A stretch of 64,000 bases of DNA, taken from Seramator thermalis (GTDB lineage: Bacteria; Bacteroidota; Bacteroidia; Bacteroidales; Dysgonomonadaceae). A program made the position numbers and the translations under genes. Below, in pieces: positions 37,743 to 50,883 of the stretch (position 1 is its first letter; each line of letters starts with the position of its first letter). The stretch spans positions 1-64,000 of the forward strand of contig NZ_RXHS01000014.1 of assembly GCF_004138125.1 (NCBI RefSeq), in the 5' to 3' direction. The notes below the pieces were generated by a model. The model was not told the DNA's origin, did not search any database, and worked only from the letters and a program-made list of their open reading frames with translations.

Positions 37743-37815
37743 GACTCCGTAGCTCAGTTGGTAGAGCAATTGACTCTTAATCAATGGGTCGAGGGTTCGA
37801 GCCCCTCCGGGGTCA
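37743..37815 (+). tRNA. tRNA-Lys (anticodon CTT)
   Basis: All four arms fold. The acceptor arms are GACTCCG and CGGGGTC (one G-U), the D arm is GCTC/GAGC, the anticodon loop is CTCTTAA with anticodon CTT, and the T arm is GAGGG/CCCTC with loop TTCGAGC. CCA is not encoded. Its 3' part is the left attachment site of the island, which keeps the tRNA intact. Confidence 0.96.
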
Positions 37816-37816
37816 C
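37763..37816 (+). repeat. attL: 54-bp direct repeat in the tRNA 3' part
   Basis: It starts AGAGCAATTGACTC and ends CCTCCGGGGTCAC, covering the end of the D arm through the 3' end of tRNA-Lys plus one base. It is identical to the copy at 50830-50883. Confidence 0.92.
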
Positions 37817-37822
37817 CTGATA

Positions 37823-37950: not shown

Positions 37951-39150
37951 ATGAATGCAACAGTTAAAGTACTATGTTACAAGTCTAAAACATTAGCCAG
38001 CGGAGAAAATCCCTTAATGATTAGAGTATCTAAAAACGGAAAAAAAACTTACAAAAGTCTCGGAATTTCAATAAATCCTATTTACTGGGATTTTAAGGAG
38101 AACAAGCCGAAACGCAATTGTCCTGATAGGGAACAGATTGAAAATCTCATCATCGAAAAACTCAAAGTATTCAACCAAACCATTTTAGAATTAAACGCAA
38201 CGCAAAAAGAGTACACCTCTGATTCGCTGATTAACAAAGTCGAAAAACCATTTGAATTAAAAACAGTTGATACCATTTTTAAAGAGCAGATAAACATTCT
38301 GGAAAAAACTCAAAACTTAGGTTCATTGCATCTATACAGATACACTTACAAATCATTGAAGGCATTCAATGGTCATCTCAATTTTTACTTTTCCGATATT
38401 GATGTTATTTGGCTAAAAAAGTTTGAGAATAGTTTAAAGAATAAAAATCTATCCGATAATTCAATTGGAATTATTTACCGAACTTTGCGAACTGTTTATA
38501 ATATAGCCATCGAAGAGAAATGTGTAAATCCGCAATTATATCCTTTCCGCACTTTTAAGGTTTCCAAATTGCATAAGGATACAGCAAAAAGAGCCTTAAC
38601 AAAATCCGACATCAAACGAATTATCAGCTATCAAGCAAGCACCGAAAGAGAACAATTATCCCTCGACATTTTCATATTTTCCTATCTCACAGGCGGAATA
38701 AACTTTGTCGATATTGCTTCACTTACAAAAGACAATATTATTAATAATCAACTTGTTTACACACGTAAAAAGACAGGTAAACTCATAAAACTACCCTTGC
38801 ATCCTACTGCATATAAATTGATAGAGAAATACCATAATCCCGAAACGCCCTATCTTTTTCCCATATTGTCCCCATTTCATAAAACCGAACAGCAAAAAGC
38901 AAACAGAGTACACAAAATAATCGGGAAAACGAATAAGGATTTAAAAAACATAGGAGAATCGTTAAAACTTCCTATTACGCTGACTACCTATGTAGCCCGA
39001 CACTCCTTTGCTACCGTTTTAAAACGCAGTGGAGTTAAAACATCTGTGATTAGTGAATCTTTAGGTCATAGCTCCGAAAGAGTTACTCAATATTATTTGG
39101 ATAGTTTTGAGAATGATAAACTAAGTGAAACTATAAATTATTTATTATAA
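37951..39150 (+). CDS. tyrosine site-specific integrase (Bacteroidetes arm-binding/SAM-like type)
   Basis: A 399-residue recombinase that would integrate and excise the island at tRNA-Lys. It has the N-terminal arm-DNA-binding part (VLCYKSKTLASGENPLMIRV), a SAM-like core-binding domain (about 105-205) and the catalytic domain. Catalytic positions seen are the Lys region TRKKTGKLIKLPL, VARHSFAT, ESLGHSS and the nucleophile Tyr in TQYYLDSF. The place of the first catalytic Arg reads SYLTGGINFVDIASL, with no Arg; several Bacteroidetes integrases such as IntDOT are also atypical there. It is read away from the tRNA. Confidence 0.93.
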   Translation: MNATVKVLCYKSKTLASGENPLMIRVSKNGKKTYKSLGISINPIYWDFKENKPKRNCPDREQIENLIIEKLKVFNQTILELNATQKEYTSDSLINKVEKPFELKTVDTIFKEQINILEKTQNLGSLHLYRYTYKSLKAFNGHLNFYFSDIDVIWLKKFENSLKNKNLSDNSIGIIYRTLRTVYNIAIEEKCVNPQLYPFRTFKVSKLHKDTAKRALTKSDIKRIISYQASTEREQLSLDIFIFSYLTGGINFVDIASLTKDNIINNQLVYTRKKTGKLIKLPLHPTAYKLIEKYHNPETPYLFPILSPFHKTEQQKANRVHKIIGKTNKDLKNIGESLKLPITLTTYVARHSFATVLKRSGVKTSVISESLGHSSERVTQYYLDSFENDKLSETINYLL

Positions 39151-39187
39151 AATTGGTTGTATCTCTCAATAATTTATACTTTTGCAA

Positions 39188-39276: not shown

Positions 39277-41223
39277 ATGAGTAACATCTTTAATTTAAGT
39301 GAAGCTAAATACATCGCAATCAATGAAAACGAGTATCTGATTGATGTATTTGAAAGAGAGGGTTTTGAATTAGATGCAATACCCGCAAATTGCATTTTTC
39401 ATAAAACTCTCCCGGGTTTAGGAGCTACTTATAGTGAAATTAAAGCAAAAAGAAACTCTGTAATAATTGAGCCGAATGTACCTGTTATCAAGGGTAAAAC
39501 AGATAAAAATGATAAATTATTAGGTGTTTATGAGGGTGTTACGGATAATAAAATTAAAAAATATCTGCTCAATAAAGATGTAAAATATAAAAAAGTACTT
39601 TGTACACCCGAAAGTTACTCAAAGGTTCGTAAAGTAGCCAATAAGAATAATATCAATTTATTTGAGAACTATTTTTGTTTATTTGATGAATGCGAGAAAG
39701 TTATCCAAGACATAGATTATCGGGAACAAATTTCATCGCCGATGGAAGACTTTTTTTTATATAATAGCAAGGCTTTTTTATCAGCAACACCATTACAAGC
39801 AAGACATCCAAAATTTGAGGAGCAAAATTTCTATCTGCTTGAAATACAACCATCCTTTGATTACAAAAAAAAGATAACACTTATCACAACTAATGATTTT
39901 TATAGTTCGGTTGCAGATTTCTTTGAAAAGTTTAAAGGTAGTCCATGTGTTTGTGTATTCTTTAATTCAACATCGGGAATTCATAAATTAATCAAACAAT
40001 TAGAAAGTAACGGAATAGAAGATTACAAAGTGTTCTGTTCTCCAAAGAGCGTTTTTAAATCTAAAGGTAAGCAAGACCCGATGAAAAATATCTATCCCGA
40101 TTTAGATTTACCTTTAGCAAGATACAATTTTTTCACTTCTCGTTTTTTTTCCGCAGTTGATATTTTGTCACCTGCAAAACCCGATATTTTGATATTAACC
40201 GATTTGGATGAAGCTGAACATACAAAAATTGATCCTTTTACTAATAGCATTCAAATATACGGACGATTCCGTAATTCTTATGAAGACGGTAAAAAATTCA
40301 ACTCTCTCACTCACATTTCAACTTATGGAATTAAAGATCCGATTTTAGATGAATCAGAAATACGAGAATATATAGATAAAGCCGAATTAGGATTTGAAGA
40401 TCAGCAATTAAGATTAATGCATACAGATAGCATTATACAAAGGGAGGGAATTGAACAAAAAAAATCGGGACGATATTTGGCTGAAACCGAAGCACAATCA
40501 AAAGCAGTTTATAACAAATTCTTAGATAAAGACGGTAAATTAAACTATTTCAAGATAGATAATTTCTATGATGAAAACCGAGTGAAGGCATACTATGCAG
40601 CACCCAATAATTTACATGAAGCCTATCAAAGGACAAGTCATTTTATTATAAATCATGAAAATGCGTTATTTGTTATTAGTAGTCCAAAAATAACGGATTT
40701 TTCAAAAATCAAAAATACGGTAGAAAGACGAAAGTTTTTAGTTGAGCAATTAGAGTTAATACATACGAGTGATTTGCCTGATAGTCAAAAAGAGTCCGCA
40801 ATAGCTTATTTTTACAGAGAAGAAGATCGAAAGAGGTTGGAAGAGGTTGAGTACAATATTAGTGCTTACCATATACTCGGGAAAAAGCCAATGGAAGATT
40901 GCGAATATCAAAAAGGTGCGATAGACAAACTACTAAAGGAACACGAAGAAAAGCTAAATGAAGAAAAAATGTTCTCAAAAACTGTTTGTGATGAAATTCT
41001 TGCTCGATTTGGTGAAAATCAAGAGCATCATATCGATAAGCTTACGGAAGGGTTCAGAGAAATTTTTACAAAAAATGGCATTACTACCAATATAATGCAT
41101 GGAGATAAAATAAAAATACCTATAATAGAACGGTACTACAAATTAAAGCAGCATAAATCAGGGGGTAATCATACAGGTTTGATACAATTATTTGATTTCC
41201 AACCCGATAAAGAGCACGAGTGA
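39277..41223 (+). CDS. SF2 helicase-like protein with lysine-less Walker A (paralogue 1)
   Basis: A 648-residue cytoplasmic protein; the start is placed after repeat A. It has an SF2 helicase layout: motif I-like FHKTLPGLGAT (41-51), a motif I/Ia spacer NSVIIEPNVPVI, DEC in FCLFDECEKV (136-141), motif III SATPL (169-173) and motif VI QIYGRFR (326-332). In motif I the invariant lysine of GxGKT is Ala, and a lysine sits four residues before the first Gly (Lys43). It shares with the protein at 42540 the pattern P-x-N-C-x-F-x-K-x3-G-x-G-x-T and LLG-x-Y-x-GVTD (82-90). The C-terminal 250 residues are charged, of unknown function. A role in island replication or maintenance is inferred only from position. 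Confidence 0.75.
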   Translation: MSNIFNLSEAKYIAINENEYLIDVFEREGFELDAIPANCIFHKTLPGLGATYSEIKAKRNSVIIEPNVPVIKGKTDKNDKLLGVYEGVTDNKIKKYLLNKDVKYKKVLCTPESYSKVRKVANKNNINLFENYFCLFDECEKVIQDIDYREQISSPMEDFFLYNSKAFLSATPLQARHPKFEEQNFYLLEIQPSFDYKKKITLITTNDFYSSVADFFEKFKGSPCVCVFFNSTSGIHKLIKQLESNGIEDYKVFCSPKSVFKSKGKQDPMKNIYPDLDLPLARYNFFTSRFFSAVDILSPAKPDILILTDLDEAEHTKIDPFTNSIQIYGRFRNSYEDGKKFNSLTHISTYGIKDPILDESEIREYIDKAELGFEDQQLRLMHTDSIIQREGIEQKKSGRYLAETEAQSKAVYNKFLDKDGKLNYFKIDNFYDENRVKAYYAAPNNLHEAYQRTSHFIINHENALFVISSPKITDFSKIKNTVERRKFLVEQLELIHTSDLPDSQKESAIAYFYREEDRKRLEEVEYNISAYHILGKKPMEDCEYQKGAIDKLLKEHEEKLNEEKMFSKTVCDEILARFGENQEHHIDKLTEGFREIFTKNGITTNIMHGDKIKIPIIERYYKLKQHKSGGNHTGLIQLFDFQPDKEHE

Positions 41224-41490
41224 TTAAGAGAACTCCACTCCCACACACAGTTTGTATTAACAAACTGAAAAACAAGGTTTTATGCATTATTTATATTTCC
41301 TTTTATGATACGAGAAAATAGTAACAGGGAGTATATAATTTCGTCAAATTTATGTACAGCGGTAAAAAAATAAAAACAATTCTGTAAACGCTATTGCATC
41401 ACCAATGTGTCAATGATTTTCACGGAAAAATAAAAAACAAAAAGTACAGATATATTTGTAAAACAATGACAGCAATATAACTGATTAATT

Positions 41491-41515
41491 TAATACCTAA
41501 CTCGGGGGAAATGGA
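41491..41515 (+). repeat. degenerate module tag, copy 3
   Basis: TAATACCTAACTCGGGGGA closely matches the tags at 44708 and 46601 (TAATACCGAACTTGGGGGA in the latter). No clear hairpin precedes this copy. Confidence 0.55.
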
Positions 41516-41592
41516 AAATTTGACACTATTCAAAAGATTGTGTAAATGAAAAAGGAAAATGATTCTTATAGTTTTTTCTTTTTCGTCCACGA

Positions 41593-41718
41593 TTAAAACA
41601 AAATCTTAGAATAACCGGTAGCCTTTATTACCTCCCATAGCTCCGCTTTTTCCGATCCGTAAAGCTCTACTGTCCATAGAGCCTTTCTTTTATGTCCTTT
41701 GCCTTTTTCATTCCCCAT
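41593..41718 (-). CDS. possible 41-residue basic protein, RHH/mobilization-like fragment
   Basis: The minus strand encodes MGNEKGKGHKRKALWTVEL and then YGSEKAELWEVIKATGYSK before TAA. A basic start followed by a strand and two short helices resembles the ribbon-helix-helix part of MobC-type accessory proteins, where a longer helical part normally follows. It may be a truncated mobilization gene. Chance cannot be excluded at this length. Confidence 0.35.
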   Translation of the reverse strand: MGNEKGKGHKRKALWTVELYGSEKAELWEVIKATGYSKILF

Positions 41719-41866
41719 ATTTCAGCCTCGCATTATCTCTAATCCCGCGTACCAAATAATTTTGTTGATCAGCAATTTACCTCCATAAGATTTTGTACCT
41801 TTGTAATAATAAATAGATTACCAACACATTAGATGATCCCATTATAAATGTAAAAACGATGACAAA

Positions 41867-42046
41867 ATGGCTGAAAATATACAGAAATCGACTATCGATA
41901 ACCTTCAAAATGTTTCAAAAATCCTGACTAAATTTGTTTCACGAATCAAAAACGCTGATTCAAGCGTAGAAATGAAAAAGCATTCAAATGTTTCTGAAAT
42001 TGCGAAACTTGCACGACCTAAAAATCTCCTTCAAAACCTTTGCTGA
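41867..42046 (+). CDS. possible 59-residue protein of unknown function
   Basis: An open frame beginning MAENIQKSTIDNLQNVSKIL with amphipathic helical character and a normal amino-acid mix, 63 bp after a TACCTTTG promoter-like box. No family is recognised. Another short frame overlaps the start, so expression is uncertain. Confidence 0.35.
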   Translation: MAENIQKSTIDNLQNVSKILTKFVSRIKNADSSVEMKKHSNVSEIAKLARPKNLLQNLC

Positions 42047-42539
42047 CAAAAAGCAGATGTCAATAATTTTAATACTCAAAATTTCAATACATTGACGCCA
42101 TTGAATTATTATCTGAGTTTGAACCAGAATAATTTATTCATGCCACAAATTTTCTATTGTACAAATAACAAATTCAACTTTCGCAAGTAAAATAACTTGG
42201 TGACTTAAAGAAAAAAAGCAGCATATTTTTTTTTGGTAAAATCAATGACAATTACATTCAGAACTGTCTGAAATTAAATCTTGGACAATATGGCATAAGA
42301 ACAGGCATCAACCTGTTTTTATTTTGACCTTTCTGCCGGATTTTCCGATTTTCAAACGCATAATTTGCATATCAAGTTCTCCCGCTAACTTCATTTCATA
42401 GATTTGCGTCGCAACTCCCCAGATAATCAGACGGATTTTTATATTCGGAAACACCGAAAACATAAAGAGAGAAAAAAGAAAAAAAATCCGTTCCTCACAC
42501 GATTCAGATAAATCATTTATAAACCATAAAATTTATTTT

Positions 42540-44384
42540 ATGAGTAAAAAAATTATTGAACCAAAAGACTCAGACGAATACCTGAGCGATTTTATGACCG
42601 AACTCCCGACTAATTGCCTGTTCGATAAAGGCAAAACAGGCTGTGGTGGAACCACCATTGCCATACTAAACGAGATAGACACAATTATTGCTATGCCCTA
42701 TGTCAATACGATAAAAAACAAAACAGAGCAGCACCCCGATTTATTGGGCATATATCAGGGAGTTACAGATCAAGAAATTTTAGATTACATGCAAAACCAC
42801 CCGAAGAAAAAAATCGCAGTAACTTATGACAAATTGGAACACCTGATCTATCTACTTGAACAAAACGGGTACGAACCATACAGCCGGTTTTATTTGTTGG
42901 TCGATGAGTGGCATATTTTATTCAACAGTTATGCCTTTAGGAATGAAGCCGTGAAAAAAGTATTGTTTCATAGTCGCAAATTCGAAAAAGTAACTTATAT
43001 GACTGCTACACCCATCGAAGATGAATTTATTCTGAACGAACTCAAAGATCTGCCTATTGTTGAAGTGTCATGGCCCAATACGGTAAAAGTAAATATCAAA
43101 CCGGTTATTACTGCCAGACCAATAAATGAGGTTTGCAGACTGATAACCGATGCACTTACAGGCAAAATGTTCGGTAACCTGCATTTCTTTGTGAACAGCG
43201 TTGATTTTATTGCCGAAGCAATTTCAAAATCAAATTTAAAACCCGATCAGGTCCGTGTTATCTGTTCCAACAACACTTCACCCGGTAGAGGCCGCAAAAG
43301 CAATCAAAATAAGTTAGGGATCGAATATCAGATTGCTACGACAACAGACCCTGTAAAACAAATCAATTTTTATACTTCCACATGCTTTGAGGGTTGCGAT
43401 ATCTACGATGAAAACGGAAGAACTTACATTGTCAGCGATAAAAACAAATCACATACGCTACTGGATATTTCAACATTAATCATTCAAATATGCGGACGCA
43501 TTCGCGATTCACACTATAAAACAGAAATAACCCATATTTTTTCAGAAACCCGATACAACAATTTTACTTCTTACGAAGAGTTCAAAGCATTCTCACAAAA
43601 AGAAATCGAAACAACAAAAAAGTGGATCGATGAAGTGAATAACATGAGCGAAGAAAGTCGTAAAAAAAACATATCAATTATTGAAAAAGGCAACAAAGCA
43701 GGATTGAACGAACAATATATTTATAAAAAAGAAGATAAACTGTTTTTTGATGAAAACTTGGTTAAGTTAGACATTGTAAACTTCAAAATTACACACAGCC
43801 TTTATGCTTCAAGAATAACACTTAAAAATGAGTATGGCAAATATGGATTTAATGTTTTATCCGAAGATGTTATGGTTTACACAGACAAACTCATGACAAA
43901 CAAGAAAGCAAAAATTTCATTCAAAGACTTATTCGACGAATATGTCAGACTCAAAAAAGATATTCCCATGTTTCATTTTGGAAACATAGATGAACGAATC
44001 TCGCTGATTGAAAAAGAAAAACCTTTGGTAAAAATTGCCTACGACACGTTAGGAGCCGACAAAGTCGAAGGATTAAAATACAATGTTACAAATATAAAAA
44101 GAACGATACTTAAATATCAAGGAAATAAATCAAATGATGCTAAAATTATTGAATGTCTGAATGATATTGGCATTAAGGAAGGCAGCACAATGCGTGTAAG
44201 TGAATGTAAAAAAAAGCTGCAAAAAATATATTCAGACCTTGCCCTTTACGAGGAATACAATAAAATAAAAGCAGCCAAAGCCACAGATCTGTCACAATGG
44301 TTTGAAATAAAACGCCATACAATTAAAGAAAAAGGTAAATCAACTGATTGCATCACTATAATAAAAAGCAAAATGACATATTAA
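42540..44384 (+). CDS. SF2 helicase-like protein with lysine-less Walker A (paralogue 2)
   Basis: A 614-residue cytoplasmic protein. Motif I is FDKGKTGCGGT (28-38): the GxGKT lysine is Gly, and Lys30 aligns with Lys43 of the first paralogue. Motif II is LLVDEWH, motif III YMTATPIED and motif VI QICGRIR. LLGIYQGVTD (about 66-75) repeats the signature of the first protein. The rest of the SF2 core is kept, which argues against simple decay. The C-terminal half has no recognised domain. The two proteins diverge elsewhere, so they look like old paralogues with separate roles rather than a recent duplication. Confidence 0.75.
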   Translation: MSKKIIEPKDSDEYLSDFMTELPTNCLFDKGKTGCGGTTIAILNEIDTIIAMPYVNTIKNKTEQHPDLLGIYQGVTDQEILDYMQNHPKKKIAVTYDKLEHLIYLLEQNGYEPYSRFYLLVDEWHILFNSYAFRNEAVKKVLFHSRKFEKVTYMTATPIEDEFILNELKDLPIVEVSWPNTVKVNIKPVITARPINEVCRLITDALTGKMFGNLHFFVNSVDFIAEAISKSNLKPDQVRVICSNNTSPGRGRKSNQNKLGIEYQIATTTDPVKQINFYTSTCFEGCDIYDENGRTYIVSDKNKSHTLLDISTLIIQICGRIRDSHYKTEITHIFSETRYNNFTSYEEFKAFSQKEIETTKKWIDEVNNMSEESRKKNISIIEKGNKAGLNEQYIYKKEDKLFFDENLVKLDIVNFKITHSLYASRITLKNEYGKYGFNVLSEDVMVYTDKLMTNKKAKISFKDLFDEYVRLKKDIPMFHFGNIDERISLIEKEKPLVKIAYDTLGADKVEGLKYNVTNIKRTILKYQGNKSNDAKIIECLNDIGIKEGSTMRVSECKKKLQKIYSDLALYEEYNKIKAAKATDLSQWFEIKRHTIKEKGKSTDCITIIKSKMTY

Positions 44385-44469: not shown

Positions 44470-44519
44470 CAAAGAAATATACAAAGCGTTGTATTTCAAA
44501 TACTTTTATCAATTAATAT

Positions 44520-44695
44520 AAAAGCGTTTTAGATATTGCCCAGACTGTCAAAATCTACCAAATTTTACAAAAGTATCGGGGTAATAGCAACAAACGCTCC
44601 ACGTCAATACGGCGTGGGGCTGTTGCTTTATACGATACTTTGGGCTTTGGTAGAGCCTGACAGTCGGTAAAGTCTAACAGTTCCCACGCTTTTTT
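44520..44695 (+). ncRNA. module leader hairpin, copy 1 (long form)
   Basis: A near-continuous hairpin of about 175 nt. The base stem AAAAGCG/CGCTTTT and TTAGAT/GTCTAA is shared with copy 2 at 46540, as is the one-sided loop CAGTTCCCA. Above it lie nested stems: GACTGTCA/TGACAGTC, TCTACCAAA/TTTGGTAGA, AAAGTATCG/CGATACTTT, AGCAACA/TGTTGCT and CTCCACG/CGTGGGG. The 3' arm runs into a T tract, so it can also act as a terminator or attenuator. It may be a leader RNA or a folded-DNA recombination site. No known RNA family is recognised. Confidence 0.6.
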
Positions 44696-44707
44696 ATTTT
44701 TAAATTT

Positions 44708-44734
44708 TAATGCCGAACTTGGGGAACGGGGAGG
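44708..44734 (+). repeat. module tag, copy 1
   Basis: TAATGCCGAACTTGGGGAAC followed by a purine-rich GGGGAGG run, 13 bp after the leader hairpin and just before the first cargo gene. It stands out as G-rich in an AT-rich island. Copy 2 is at 46601 in the same relation to its hairpin. Confidence 0.7.
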
Positions 44735-46095: not shown

Positions 46096-46329
46096 ATGAA
46101 AAAAATATTCAATCACTATGTAGTTTTTCAAAAGCTAAAACCAAAGCTAATATTAGGCGCTTTGGTGCTTATGTTCGTATTAAGCGGCTGTTCTGATTTG
46201 ATTGAAGGCGGGCTATATGTAGGGTATGGCATAACGACCATTCTTTTTACTATTCTCAAATGGCTGCTGATTATTGGAGGAATTGTCTTTGTCATTGCAT
46301 TTATTGTAGGCCTTTTTAATAAAAAATAA
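46096..46329 (+). CDS. small lipoprotein with membrane helices
   Basis: A 77-residue protein, starting at MKKIFNHYVVFQKLKPK. The lipobox LSGC is clear (VLMFVLSGCSD), followed by one or two hydrophobic helices (ITTILFTILKWLLIIGGIVF). It overlaps no other gene and closes module 1. No function is recognised; small exported membrane-active proteins in such places can be immunity or lysis-related, which is only a guess. Confidence 0.6.
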   Translation: MKKIFNHYVVFQKLKPKLILGALVLMFVLSGCSDLIEGGLYVGYGITTILFTILKWLLIIGGIVFVIAFIVGLFNKK

Positions 46330-46462
46330 ATTCGGTTTATTCTTAAAAATTGATGAAAAAAATTGCACGCCCGTTTTCCGTATTATTCATTTTTAGGTAA
46401 AACTATAGATCACTTTCGCACATCAAGAGGACAGGGAGTGCAGAAAATTTCTTATAAAAAAC
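46324..46462 (+). pseudogene. degraded 3' fragment of the DUF4595-like gene
   Basis: About 140 bp align to 48782-48924 inside the intact gene downstream. Shared blocks include TTATTCTTAAAAAT, AAATTGCACGC and CAGAAAATTTCTTAT. Stops and small deletions break the frame. Module 1 therefore once ended with the same gene that ends module 2. Confidence 0.75.
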
Positions 46463-46539
46463 AAAAAGTTCTGTATAATAAAATAATAAAAACATTAGTA
46501 AAACATTGTGCAGCAGTGCAATTTATTAGTTATTAAACG

Positions 46540-46593
46540 AAAAGCGTTTTAGATTTTGACCGCCGGTAAAGTCTAACAGTTCCGACGCTTTTT
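46540..46593 (+). ncRNA. module leader hairpin, copy 2 (short form)
   Basis: The stem AAAAGCG/CGCTTTT plus TTAGATTTTGACC/GGTAAAGTCTAA is closed by a GCC loop, with the one-sided internal loop CAGTTCCGA and a T tract. It matches the base of the long hairpin at 44520, without the apical 110 nt. Confidence 0.65.
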
Positions 46594-46600
46594 TATTGTC

Positions 46601-46628
46601 TAATACCGAACTTGGGGGACGGAGAGGG
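46601..46628 (+). repeat. module tag, copy 2
   Basis: TAATACCGAACTTGGGGGAC then GGAGAGGG, 20 bp before the DUF805 start codon. Same order (hairpin, T tract, tag, gene) as at 44708. Confidence 0.7.
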
Positions 46629-48305: not shown

Positions 48306-49010
48306 ATGAAATTCAAAAAAATTCTATCGTTCATATTGTTGCTATCACTATGTACAATATTAGCGCAAGCAAGTAATATTTCCTCAAAAAGAGTAACAAC
48401 AATAACCGTCCAAAGTGCAGAATACACATATCATTACACACTAAAATACGATTCTCAAAATAGAATCACAACAGCCATTCCCGATAATTCCGAAATATTT
48501 GGGACAACCCATTTTGAGTACGATACAAATACGTTCCGTATCAGCAAAGGCGACCAGTTTGTTTCTTGTTCATTAAACGAGCAAGGTTACATTAAGGTTG
48601 CAGAGGATGGCGGTTTTCCTGTTACATTTTTCGGTAATATGTTTTATAACGAAAAAGGACAATTATCTTCCATCGAAAACGAGAACGGAAAGATGTTGTT
48701 TACGTGGAAAAATGACGACATGGTGCAAATGAATTATGAAGGCCAACAGATTGATGTTACCTACACAACGCTCGAAAACAAAAATAAATTTGGATTATTC
48801 TTAAAAATCGACGATATAAATTGCACGCTTGTTTATCCATATTACGCACGGTTAGGCAAAGCTACCAAACATCTACCTGCAAGTATTGGACAAGGAGAAC
48901 AGAAAATTTCTTATCAATATAAAACAGACAATGAAGGATTTGTAATAGAAATAGCAATGATCTATCCAAATAACGGCAAAACCGTCTTTTACAGATTTGC
49001 CTATGATTAG
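48306..49010 (+). CDS. secreted protein, DUF4595-like
   Basis: A 234-residue exported protein with signal peptide MKFKKILSFILLLSLCTILA. The body is beta-rich with repeated strand-turn units (YTLKYDSQNRITT, HFEYDTNTFRISK, MFYNEKGQLSSIE), as in Bacteroidetes DUF4595 or YD-like proteins. Function is unknown. It ends module 2; a decayed copy of its 3' part ends module 1. DUF assignment is from memory of the pattern and is uncertain. Confidence 0.65.
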   Translation: MKFKKILSFILLLSLCTILAQASNISSKRVTTITVQSAEYTYHYTLKYDSQNRITTAIPDNSEIFGTTHFEYDTNTFRISKGDQFVSCSLNEQGYIKVAEDGGFPVTFFGNMFYNEKGQLSSIENENGKMLFTWKNDDMVQMNYEGQQIDVTYTTLENKNKFGLFLKIDDINCTLVYPYYARLGKATKHLPASIGQGEQKISYQYKTDNEGFVIEIAMIYPNNGKTVFYRFAYD

Positions 49011-50783: not shown

Positions 50784-50882
50784 GTAGCTCAGTTGGTAGC
50801 ATTAAAAAACGCAGTTTTTTGATGCCTTGAGAGCAATTGACTCTTAATCAATGGGTCGAGGGTTCGAGCCCCTCCGGGGTCA
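50784..50882 (+). pseudogene. broken tRNA-Lys copy with a hairpin insertion
   Basis: GTAGCTCAGTTGGTAG (50784-50799) matches the 5' part of tRNA-Lys. It is split from the intact 3' part (attR) by about 30 bp containing a 12-bp hairpin: GCATTAAAAAAC, loop GCA, GTTTTTTGATGC (50799-50825). The 5' acceptor strand reads AGTGCAG and cannot pair with CGGGGTC, so no functional tRNA is expected. Confidence 0.75.
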
Positions 50883-50883
50883 C
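50830..50883 (+). repeat. attR: 54-bp direct repeat of the tRNA 3' part
   Basis: Identical to 37763-37816, beginning AGAGCAATTGACTC. It is the displaced original 3' end of the host tRNA-Lys gene. Confidence 0.92.

Follow-up and report, generated by a model that had tools for sequence, protein, structure and literature searches.

What has become of the P-loop in two helicase-like proteins encoded close together in a 64-kb stretch of the Seramator thermalis genome (contig NZ_RXHS01000014.1, positions 1 to 64,000, hereafter the window), and what might such proteins do for the integrative element that carries them? Few known residues are as strongly conserved as the Walker A lysine, the loss of which usually kills ATP hydrolysis. 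Both proteins, here called P1 and P2, resemble helicases of superfamily 2 (SF2), and both have another residue where this lysine is expected. Their genes, each an open reading frame (ORF), are:

39277..41223, + strand: P1, SF2 helicase-like, 648 aa, moved Lys43, Ala at the canonical position (ORF, profile, tree)
42540..44384, + strand: P2, SF2 helicase-like, 614 aa, moved Lys30, Gly at the canonical position (ORF, alignment, model)

P1 is taken to start at the ATG at 39277; a longer version from a TTG at 39157 is possible.

The displaced lysine in P1, P2 and their relatives

An earlier note on this DNA had described P1 and P2 as a pair of SF2-like proteins in which the GxGKT lysine is replaced, by Ala in P1 and by Gly in P2, with a lysine further upstream. 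This observation is confirmed in both ORFs. The motif I region reads P-A-N-C-I-F-H-K43-T-L-P-G-L-G-A-T in P1 and P-T-N-C-L-F-D-K30-G-K-T-G-C-G-G-T in P2, giving the common form P-x-N-C-x-F-x-K-x3-G-x-G-[A/G]-T. The other SF2 motifs named for the pair (DEC, SATP and QIYGRFR in P1; DEW, TATP and QICGRIR in P2) are all present, as is LLGxYxGVTD in both proteins. P1 and P2 are homologous, with 27% identity over 335 columns (BLASTP, E 3e-19).

Relatives were gathered by four routes, namely tblastn against phage and plasmid records, pattern scans of IMG/VR and of GTDB genomes (yielding 30 and 33 loci), and a profile search of Bacteroidota genomes. The scan patterns partly included the lysine, so the loci from pattern scans alone are a biased sample. 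The moved lysine is also present in all 11 loci read from tblastn hits and in all ten members from the Bacteroidota profile search besides the window pair, a search whose profile (593 scored positions) was itself derived from moved-lysine members, so that it tests the point less stringently than a blind search would.

A profile count at E 1e-10 (103 loci) found the moved lysine in 101 of the 101 members that cover the motif, and the GK[T/S] lysine of SF2 motif I in none of them. These members come from 98 loci and include repeats and near-identical plasmids, so that the 45 distinct motif strings among them are the fairer number; six further profile hits without the motif are additional pieces of member loci and were left out. 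The canonical position is occupied by Gly (73), Ala (24), Phe (3) or Leu (1), and the form typical of the family is K-x3-G-x-G-[G/A/F/L]-[T/S], with the lysine seven positions before the canonical site. Five weak profile hits with a normal GKT (L088, L089, L093, L109 and L114) were set aside as other SF2 proteins. Three of them (L089, L093 and L109) have no hit at E 1e-10, while L088 and L114 are hit only outside the full motif; L114 has a lysine at the canonical column. L088 and L093 are SF2 genes about 2.5 kb apart in the Bacteroidota genome G224, and with their GKT motifs they are a possible outgroup for the move of the lysine.

Isolated decay of two ordinary SF2 helicases would account for the bare observation in two genes. 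It is contradicted by a change common to all 101 members and by the strong purifying selection seen between two relatives, L050 and L051, which are 82% identical with nonsynonymous and synonymous divergences (dN and dS) of 0.07-0.13 and 1.4-1.5, and we give it practically no credence. The counts instead support the moved lysine as a rule of this family, as the earlier note had suspected, and the case that it named as fatal, homologues with a normal GKT lysine, was looked for and is found in none of the 101.

Ten residues (K30, G36, D122, E123, A156, T157, Q316, G319, R320 and R322, in P2 numbering) are invariant in an alignment of 42 members, which thus keep SF2 motifs II (D122, E123), III (A156, T157) and VI (Q316, G319, R320, R322) in every row. 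The invariance of D122, E123, R320 and R322 argues for a working ATPase. It also bears on a second explanation, that these are pseudo-helicases that lost the lysine and with it hydrolysis, and that act as DNA-binding or clamp-like initiators or regulators in which the upstream lysine serves another purpose. That no member has the canonical lysine, whose loss generally abolishes hydrolysis, would fit such proteins. A dead ATPase, however, would not need the invariant DE, the AT of motif III or QxxGRxR, and the new lysine is itself invariant across the deepest split of the family tree (see below), which makes pseudo-helicases distinctly improbable in our view.

An AlphaFold2 model of P2 built from the 42-row alignment (mean predicted local distance difference test, pLDDT, 88.5; predicted template modelling score, pTM, 0.80) has two RecA domains (about residues 1-340), a helical part and a winged-helix-like C-terminal part (about 530-610). 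Strand β1 spans residues 26-29, Lys30 follows directly and helix 1 begins at 37, which places Lys30 at the start of the P-loop. Lys30 and its counterpart Lys43 in P1 may contact the phosphates of ATP. VIA-align matches the model best to a DEAD-box helicase (Z 21.4, 310 residues, 3.8 Å), over the core only, up to about model residue 444-483. Foldseek ranks UL9 of herpes simplex virus 1 (HSV-1) third against PDB, and in a viral library giant-virus origin-binding proteins are six of the 50 matches listed. Model and both structure searches agree on an SF2 fold, so the other outcome that the earlier note had held against its own proposal, a different fold, is not what the prediction gives. The C-terminal 175 residues of P2, modelled alone (pLDDT 88.3, pTM 0.65), resemble winged helices at about 530-610 (RFX, Z 5.8; C-terminal region of the NrS-1 primase, Z 4.7), and a part corresponding to this tail is present in 36 of the 42 aligned members.

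A family without a name and its distribution

At E up to 1, neither P1 nor P2 matches anything in Pfam, NCBIfam or PADLOC, and PHROGs gives weak matches only (best E 0.09); with all members as queries, PHROGs returned nothing but stray weak hits. The general Pfam DEAD model matches 9 of the 42 aligned members weakly (best E 2.2e-5). PDB sequence searches with single proteins and with the profile returned nothing, and those with a profile of the C-terminal part only chance-level hits. In the literature searched, which covered few subscription papers, no account of the family, or of an SF2 helicase whose Walker A lysine has moved, appeared among the matches listed. Judged by these sequence comparisons, the family is real, and none of Pfam, NCBIfam and PHROGs has a name for it.

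True members occur in 11 of 395 Bacteroidota genomes (13 genomes with profile hits, less G224 and G297) and relatives also in phages, in phage-plasmids and in Acinetobacter plasmids. None was found in 369 genomes of the class of one Acinetobacter, apart from the centre genome, nor in 348 genomes of the phylum of a Lachnospiraceae metagenome-assembled genome, apart from the centre genome, which holds a fragment. A scan of IMG/VR with the P1 profile gave no relative. Phages of about 90 kb, including Phab24 and D'Alembert, carry the gene, and in D'Alembert it adjoins HNH and RNA ligase genes. At L013 (MT836525.1, 4182-7157) the moved-lysine SF2 protein is fused to a BT4734-like_N domain in a 991-aa ORF (E 2.1e-12); we take this domain to be one known from replication-type genes of Bacteroidota mobile elements.

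The tree, drawn from the first ~460 residues of 46 chosen proteins and rooted by midpoint only, shows a deep split with 100/100 support, with 14 rows on the side of P1 and 32 on that of P2, and the new lysine is invariant on either side. Three elements have one protein of each type, that of the window, L046 (Bacteroidia PG1894_169) and L075 (Dysgonomonas alginatilytica). L046 has its genes in the order integrase, P1-like, P2-like, just like the window, and an integrase gene is found at the same locus in several Bacteroidota relatives. Two records labelled as Bacteroides finegoldii plasmids (L008/L009, NZ_OY725907.1 and NZ_OY725919.1) have housekeeping genes (ribonuclease Y, rsmI) near a P1-like gene and look like pieces of chromosome.

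The element, its upstream DNA and a possible role in replication

The element of the window is 13.07 kb long and bounded by 54-nt attachment site (att) repeats at a tRNA-Lys(CTT) gene. The two repeats are 100% identical over 54 nt with an offset of 13,067 nt (repeat search). The integrase gene lies next to the left end and is followed by P1, a gap, P2 and small cargo genes:

37743..37817, + strand: tRNA-Lys(CTT), integration target, its 3' part being attL (ARAGORN)
37763..37816, + strand: attL, 54-nt direct repeat, same letters as attR (repeat and pattern search)
37951..39150, + strand: tyrosine integrase, 399 aa (Pfam Arm-DNA-bind_5, Phage_int_SAM_5, Phage_integrase)
41224..42539, + strand: AT-rich gap of 1.3 kb (GC 0.31) without an ORF of 80 aa or more, candidate origin or control region
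42337..42345, + strand: CGGATTTTT-like site with 1 mismatch, at -203 from the P2 start (motif search)
42432..42440, + strand: CGGATTTTT site, at -108 from the P2 start (motif search)
42482..42490, - strand: CGGATTTTT site, inverted, at -58 from the P2 start (motif search)
50830..50883, + strand: attR, second 54-nt copy and right end of the 13.07-kb element (repeat and pattern search)

Further to the right, leader-like non-coding pieces at 44512-44734 and 46532-46627 are repeats of 82-84% identity that stand before the cargo genes at 44710 and 46648, and a remnant of part of a DUF4595 gene precedes a DUF805 gene (46322-46468 and 48780-48927).

The reading that we favour, and hold to be probable by a modest measure, is that P1 and P2 are ATP-driven, origin-binding SF2 replication initiators of mobile elements with a moved P-loop lysine. 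ATP binding by this lysine, hydrolysis and initiation are all inferred. The island would first be excised by its own integrase. The winged-helix-like C-terminus, perhaps aided by the helicase core, would then recognise sites within the AT-rich DNA that precedes the gene; the moved lysine would reach the β and γ phosphates from the end of β1, the conserved DE and arginines would hydrolyse ATP, and the motor would open origin DNA for the host replisome.

Candidate sites of this kind stand upstream of P2. Inverted CGGATTTTT sites occur before P2 and before the gene of seven close relatives (8 of 8 loci), with three to five copies within 320 nt, in both orientations, at some of the positions -200, -145, -110 and -58. 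In the window the inverted copy at 42482 and the copy at 42432 form a pair with an A-rich spacer between them. Inspection by eye of seven aligned loci supplied the motif, and L048, which lies outside that alignment, has five copies with matching spacing. The search held CGG fixed and allowed one mismatch, and at this setting the whole window contains 31 copies. P2 may bind these sites.

Eight loci of the Acinetobacter group (phages L004-L006; plasmids or genomes L007, L010, L065, L068 and L070) have 0.7-2.3 kb without an 80-aa ORF upstream of the gene, and many gut relatives have a shorter ORF-free stretch there. The non-coding upstream region is conserved between Acinetobacter plasmids. In 8 of 9 Acinetobacter loci it includes a conserved element of 40 nt that contains the palindrome AAGCTC-CTTA-GAGCTT, about 0.55-0.72 kb upstream (L007, L010, L065, L099 with an imperfect palindrome, L100, L104, L105 and L106; L101 does not align), and the element is kept although the L007 and L010 proteins are just 51% identical. 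We regard it as a lead only. An iteron search found weak AAAAGTGTA repeats upstream in two Acinetobacter plasmids.

The gene is present on 16 Acinetobacter plasmid records. MOB-suite, consulted via PLSDB, reports no replicon for 11 of the 12 plasmids opened. When the ORFs of at least 60 aa were compared between a 35-kb mobilizable plasmid and two phage-plasmids of 38 and 45 kb, with transposon genes set aside, the only ones common to all three were this SF2 gene, one for a ParA-like ATPase and one for a small partner, and no Rep family was found by Pfam among 20 ORFs (10 from the 45-kb and 10 from the 35-kb plasmid). A gene for a ParA-like or AAA ATPase lies downstream of the SF2 gene on eight Acinetobacter plasmids, and at least one of the plasmids or phage-plasmids with the gene bears resistance genes. 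The SF2 gene is the best candidate for the missing initiator of these Acinetobacter plasmids and phage-plasmids. According to one survey, 142 of 621 A. baumannii plasmids lack an identifiable Rep (PMC9927589); none of the 16 records with our gene is named A. baumannii.

The gene context also touches on whether these are defence or counter-defence helicases travelling as cargo; their genes sit on mobile islands, as many defence genes do. The lack of a PADLOC match, the integrase gene at the same locus in several Bacteroidota relatives and the ATPase gene downstream on Acinetobacter plasmids all stand against it, and we consider it very improbable.

Several points weigh against initiation as the role. 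The CGGATTTTT sites are missing in L049-L051, L075 and L078, an operator at the P2 promoter is an equal reading of them, and no clear iterons or direct-repeat family were found upstream of P2 and its relatives in the regions examined. One of the 12 plasmids opened, the 148-kb pYH12207-2, has a known replicon. The top fold scores belong to DEAD-box RNA helicases, with which the common core is shared, and the winged-helix match is modest (all Z below 6, none at Foldseek E up to 0.001). The ~90-kb phages may use the gene otherwise, and 6 of the 42 sequences aligned are short, without the C-terminal part. Finally, the Acinetobacter plasmid pNDM-GJ01 is said to have parA and repB as well as a gene for a DEAD/DEAH helicase (PMC5571222), which may be a member of the family.

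The phages with their neighbouring HNH and RNA ligase genes, the short members and pNDM-GJ01 would be easier to understand if the family were DNA remodelling motors for replication restart, recombination or early phage functions, with a working moved lysine and with initiation left to another unrecognised factor or to the host. The presence of two such proteins in one element, where one initiator would do, fits this as well. Against remodelling motors stand the plasmids in which the SF2 gene is the only candidate Rep seen, the upstream non-coding region conserved between Acinetobacter plasmids and the fold match to origin-binding proteins. We judge them unlikely, while taking them more seriously than the other alternatives. 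A role of the island's pair in initiation, which the earlier note had offered as a possibility, gains independent support from the plasmids and phage-plasmids and from a fold that resembles those of UL9 and of origin-binding proteins in giant viruses.

Among known systems, HSV-1 UL9 (Herpes_ori_bp, PF02399) is the closest in outline of operation, with an SF2 core and a DNA-binding C-terminal domain. The OriS of the UL9 system has inverted boxes and an AT-rich spacer (PMC12543377), and the inverted sites upstream of P2 are similar in outline. The family is nevertheless not part of the UL9 family, because neither a Pfam match, nor the canonical lysine, nor the origin-recognition motif RVKNL was found when each was tested. 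At E up to 1, PF02399 matches neither P1 nor P2, and it does not appear among the 24 families matched by the 42 members (E up to 0.1), and RVKNL is absent from P1, P2 and all 42 aligned rows. UL9 has a normal motif I lysine, K87, which contacts the phosphates (PMC12543377), in contrast to 0 of 101 members here. The hosts of the family, in addition, are bacteria and their phages.

DEAD-box helicases such as eIF4A and UAP56 share the two RecA domains and motifs II, III and VI with the family; unlike it, they carry GKT. For a P-loop lysine displaced towards the beginning of the loop there is a precedent in gpA of phage lambda, with a lysine spacing different from that seen here. Walker A motifs termed 'novel and deviant' were reportedly described in large terminases by Mitchell and Rao in 2004 (cited in PMC5727402). 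Terminases are packaging ATPases of another branch, unlike P1 and P2, and no Pfam match to a terminase ATPase or nuclease was found in P1, P2 or the 42 members. The position of the gene near ParA on small plasmids resembles that of Rep_3, Rep_1 and RepPriCT_1 genes, whereas P1 and P2 have no Pfam match to these and are predicted to have a helicase-like fold instead. An SF2 helicase is also listed among the replication genes of NitDev-E3, a cryptic integrated element of Thaumarchaeota (PMC6563490), so that the general idea of such a helicase in the replication of integrated elements is not new; the likeness is one of description, and motif I of that helicase is not mentioned in the accessible part of the paper.

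UGA codons in one branch and the meaning of the family

Three relatives have a P2-like gene without any TGG codon and with two in-frame TGA codons, at P2 positions W178 and W587:

L049, 924-2678: P2-like gene with in-frame TGA
L050, 407-2146: P2-like gene with in-frame TGA
L051, 8001-9737: P2-like gene with in-frame TGA

All 20 genes compared have Trp or TGA at W178; at W587 the same holds for 11 of the 13 genes that reach this position. The IMG/VR relatives L014, L023 and L043 also have TGA at W178, and L044 has one at W362. Over the 415 codons that follow the first TGA, L050 and L051 differ by a dN of 0.13 and a dS of 1.49, and this part is therefore still selected as protein. From this pattern, UGA is apparently read as Trp in the SF2 gene of L049-L051. 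Both TGA codons of L075 and further ones of L014 and L043 fall where relatives have no Trp; for L075, decay is a possible account of them.

Long ORFs next to the gene at L049-L051, L075 and L044 are mostly written with TGG, and among the ORFs gained at these loci by reading through TGA, the longest is this SF2 gene. A scan of 11 loci for a Trp-tRNA(UCA) found none. At L043 and L023 several neighbouring ORFs also open when TGA is read, as they do in known recoded phages. Separately, L048, L055, L058-L063, L067 and L071 have in-frame stops of the TAG type only, as one would expect of TAG-recoded phage DNA within bacterial assemblies.

A bolder version of the favoured reading can be put forward, tentatively and as something short of probable. 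The moved-lysine SF2 proteins of Bacteroidota islands, of gut and Acinetobacter-group phages and of Acinetobacter phage-plasmids would be initiators and a bacterial counterpart of UL9, and would explain a share of the plasmids without a Rep. One branch would write the initiator alone with UGA for Trp, so that its full-length production would depend on UGA decoding.

If true, a helicase-like family that has kept the other catalytic motifs and moved its lysine would be a natural test of what a P-loop needs, and the family would offer a replication module for the islands and phages of Bacteroidota.

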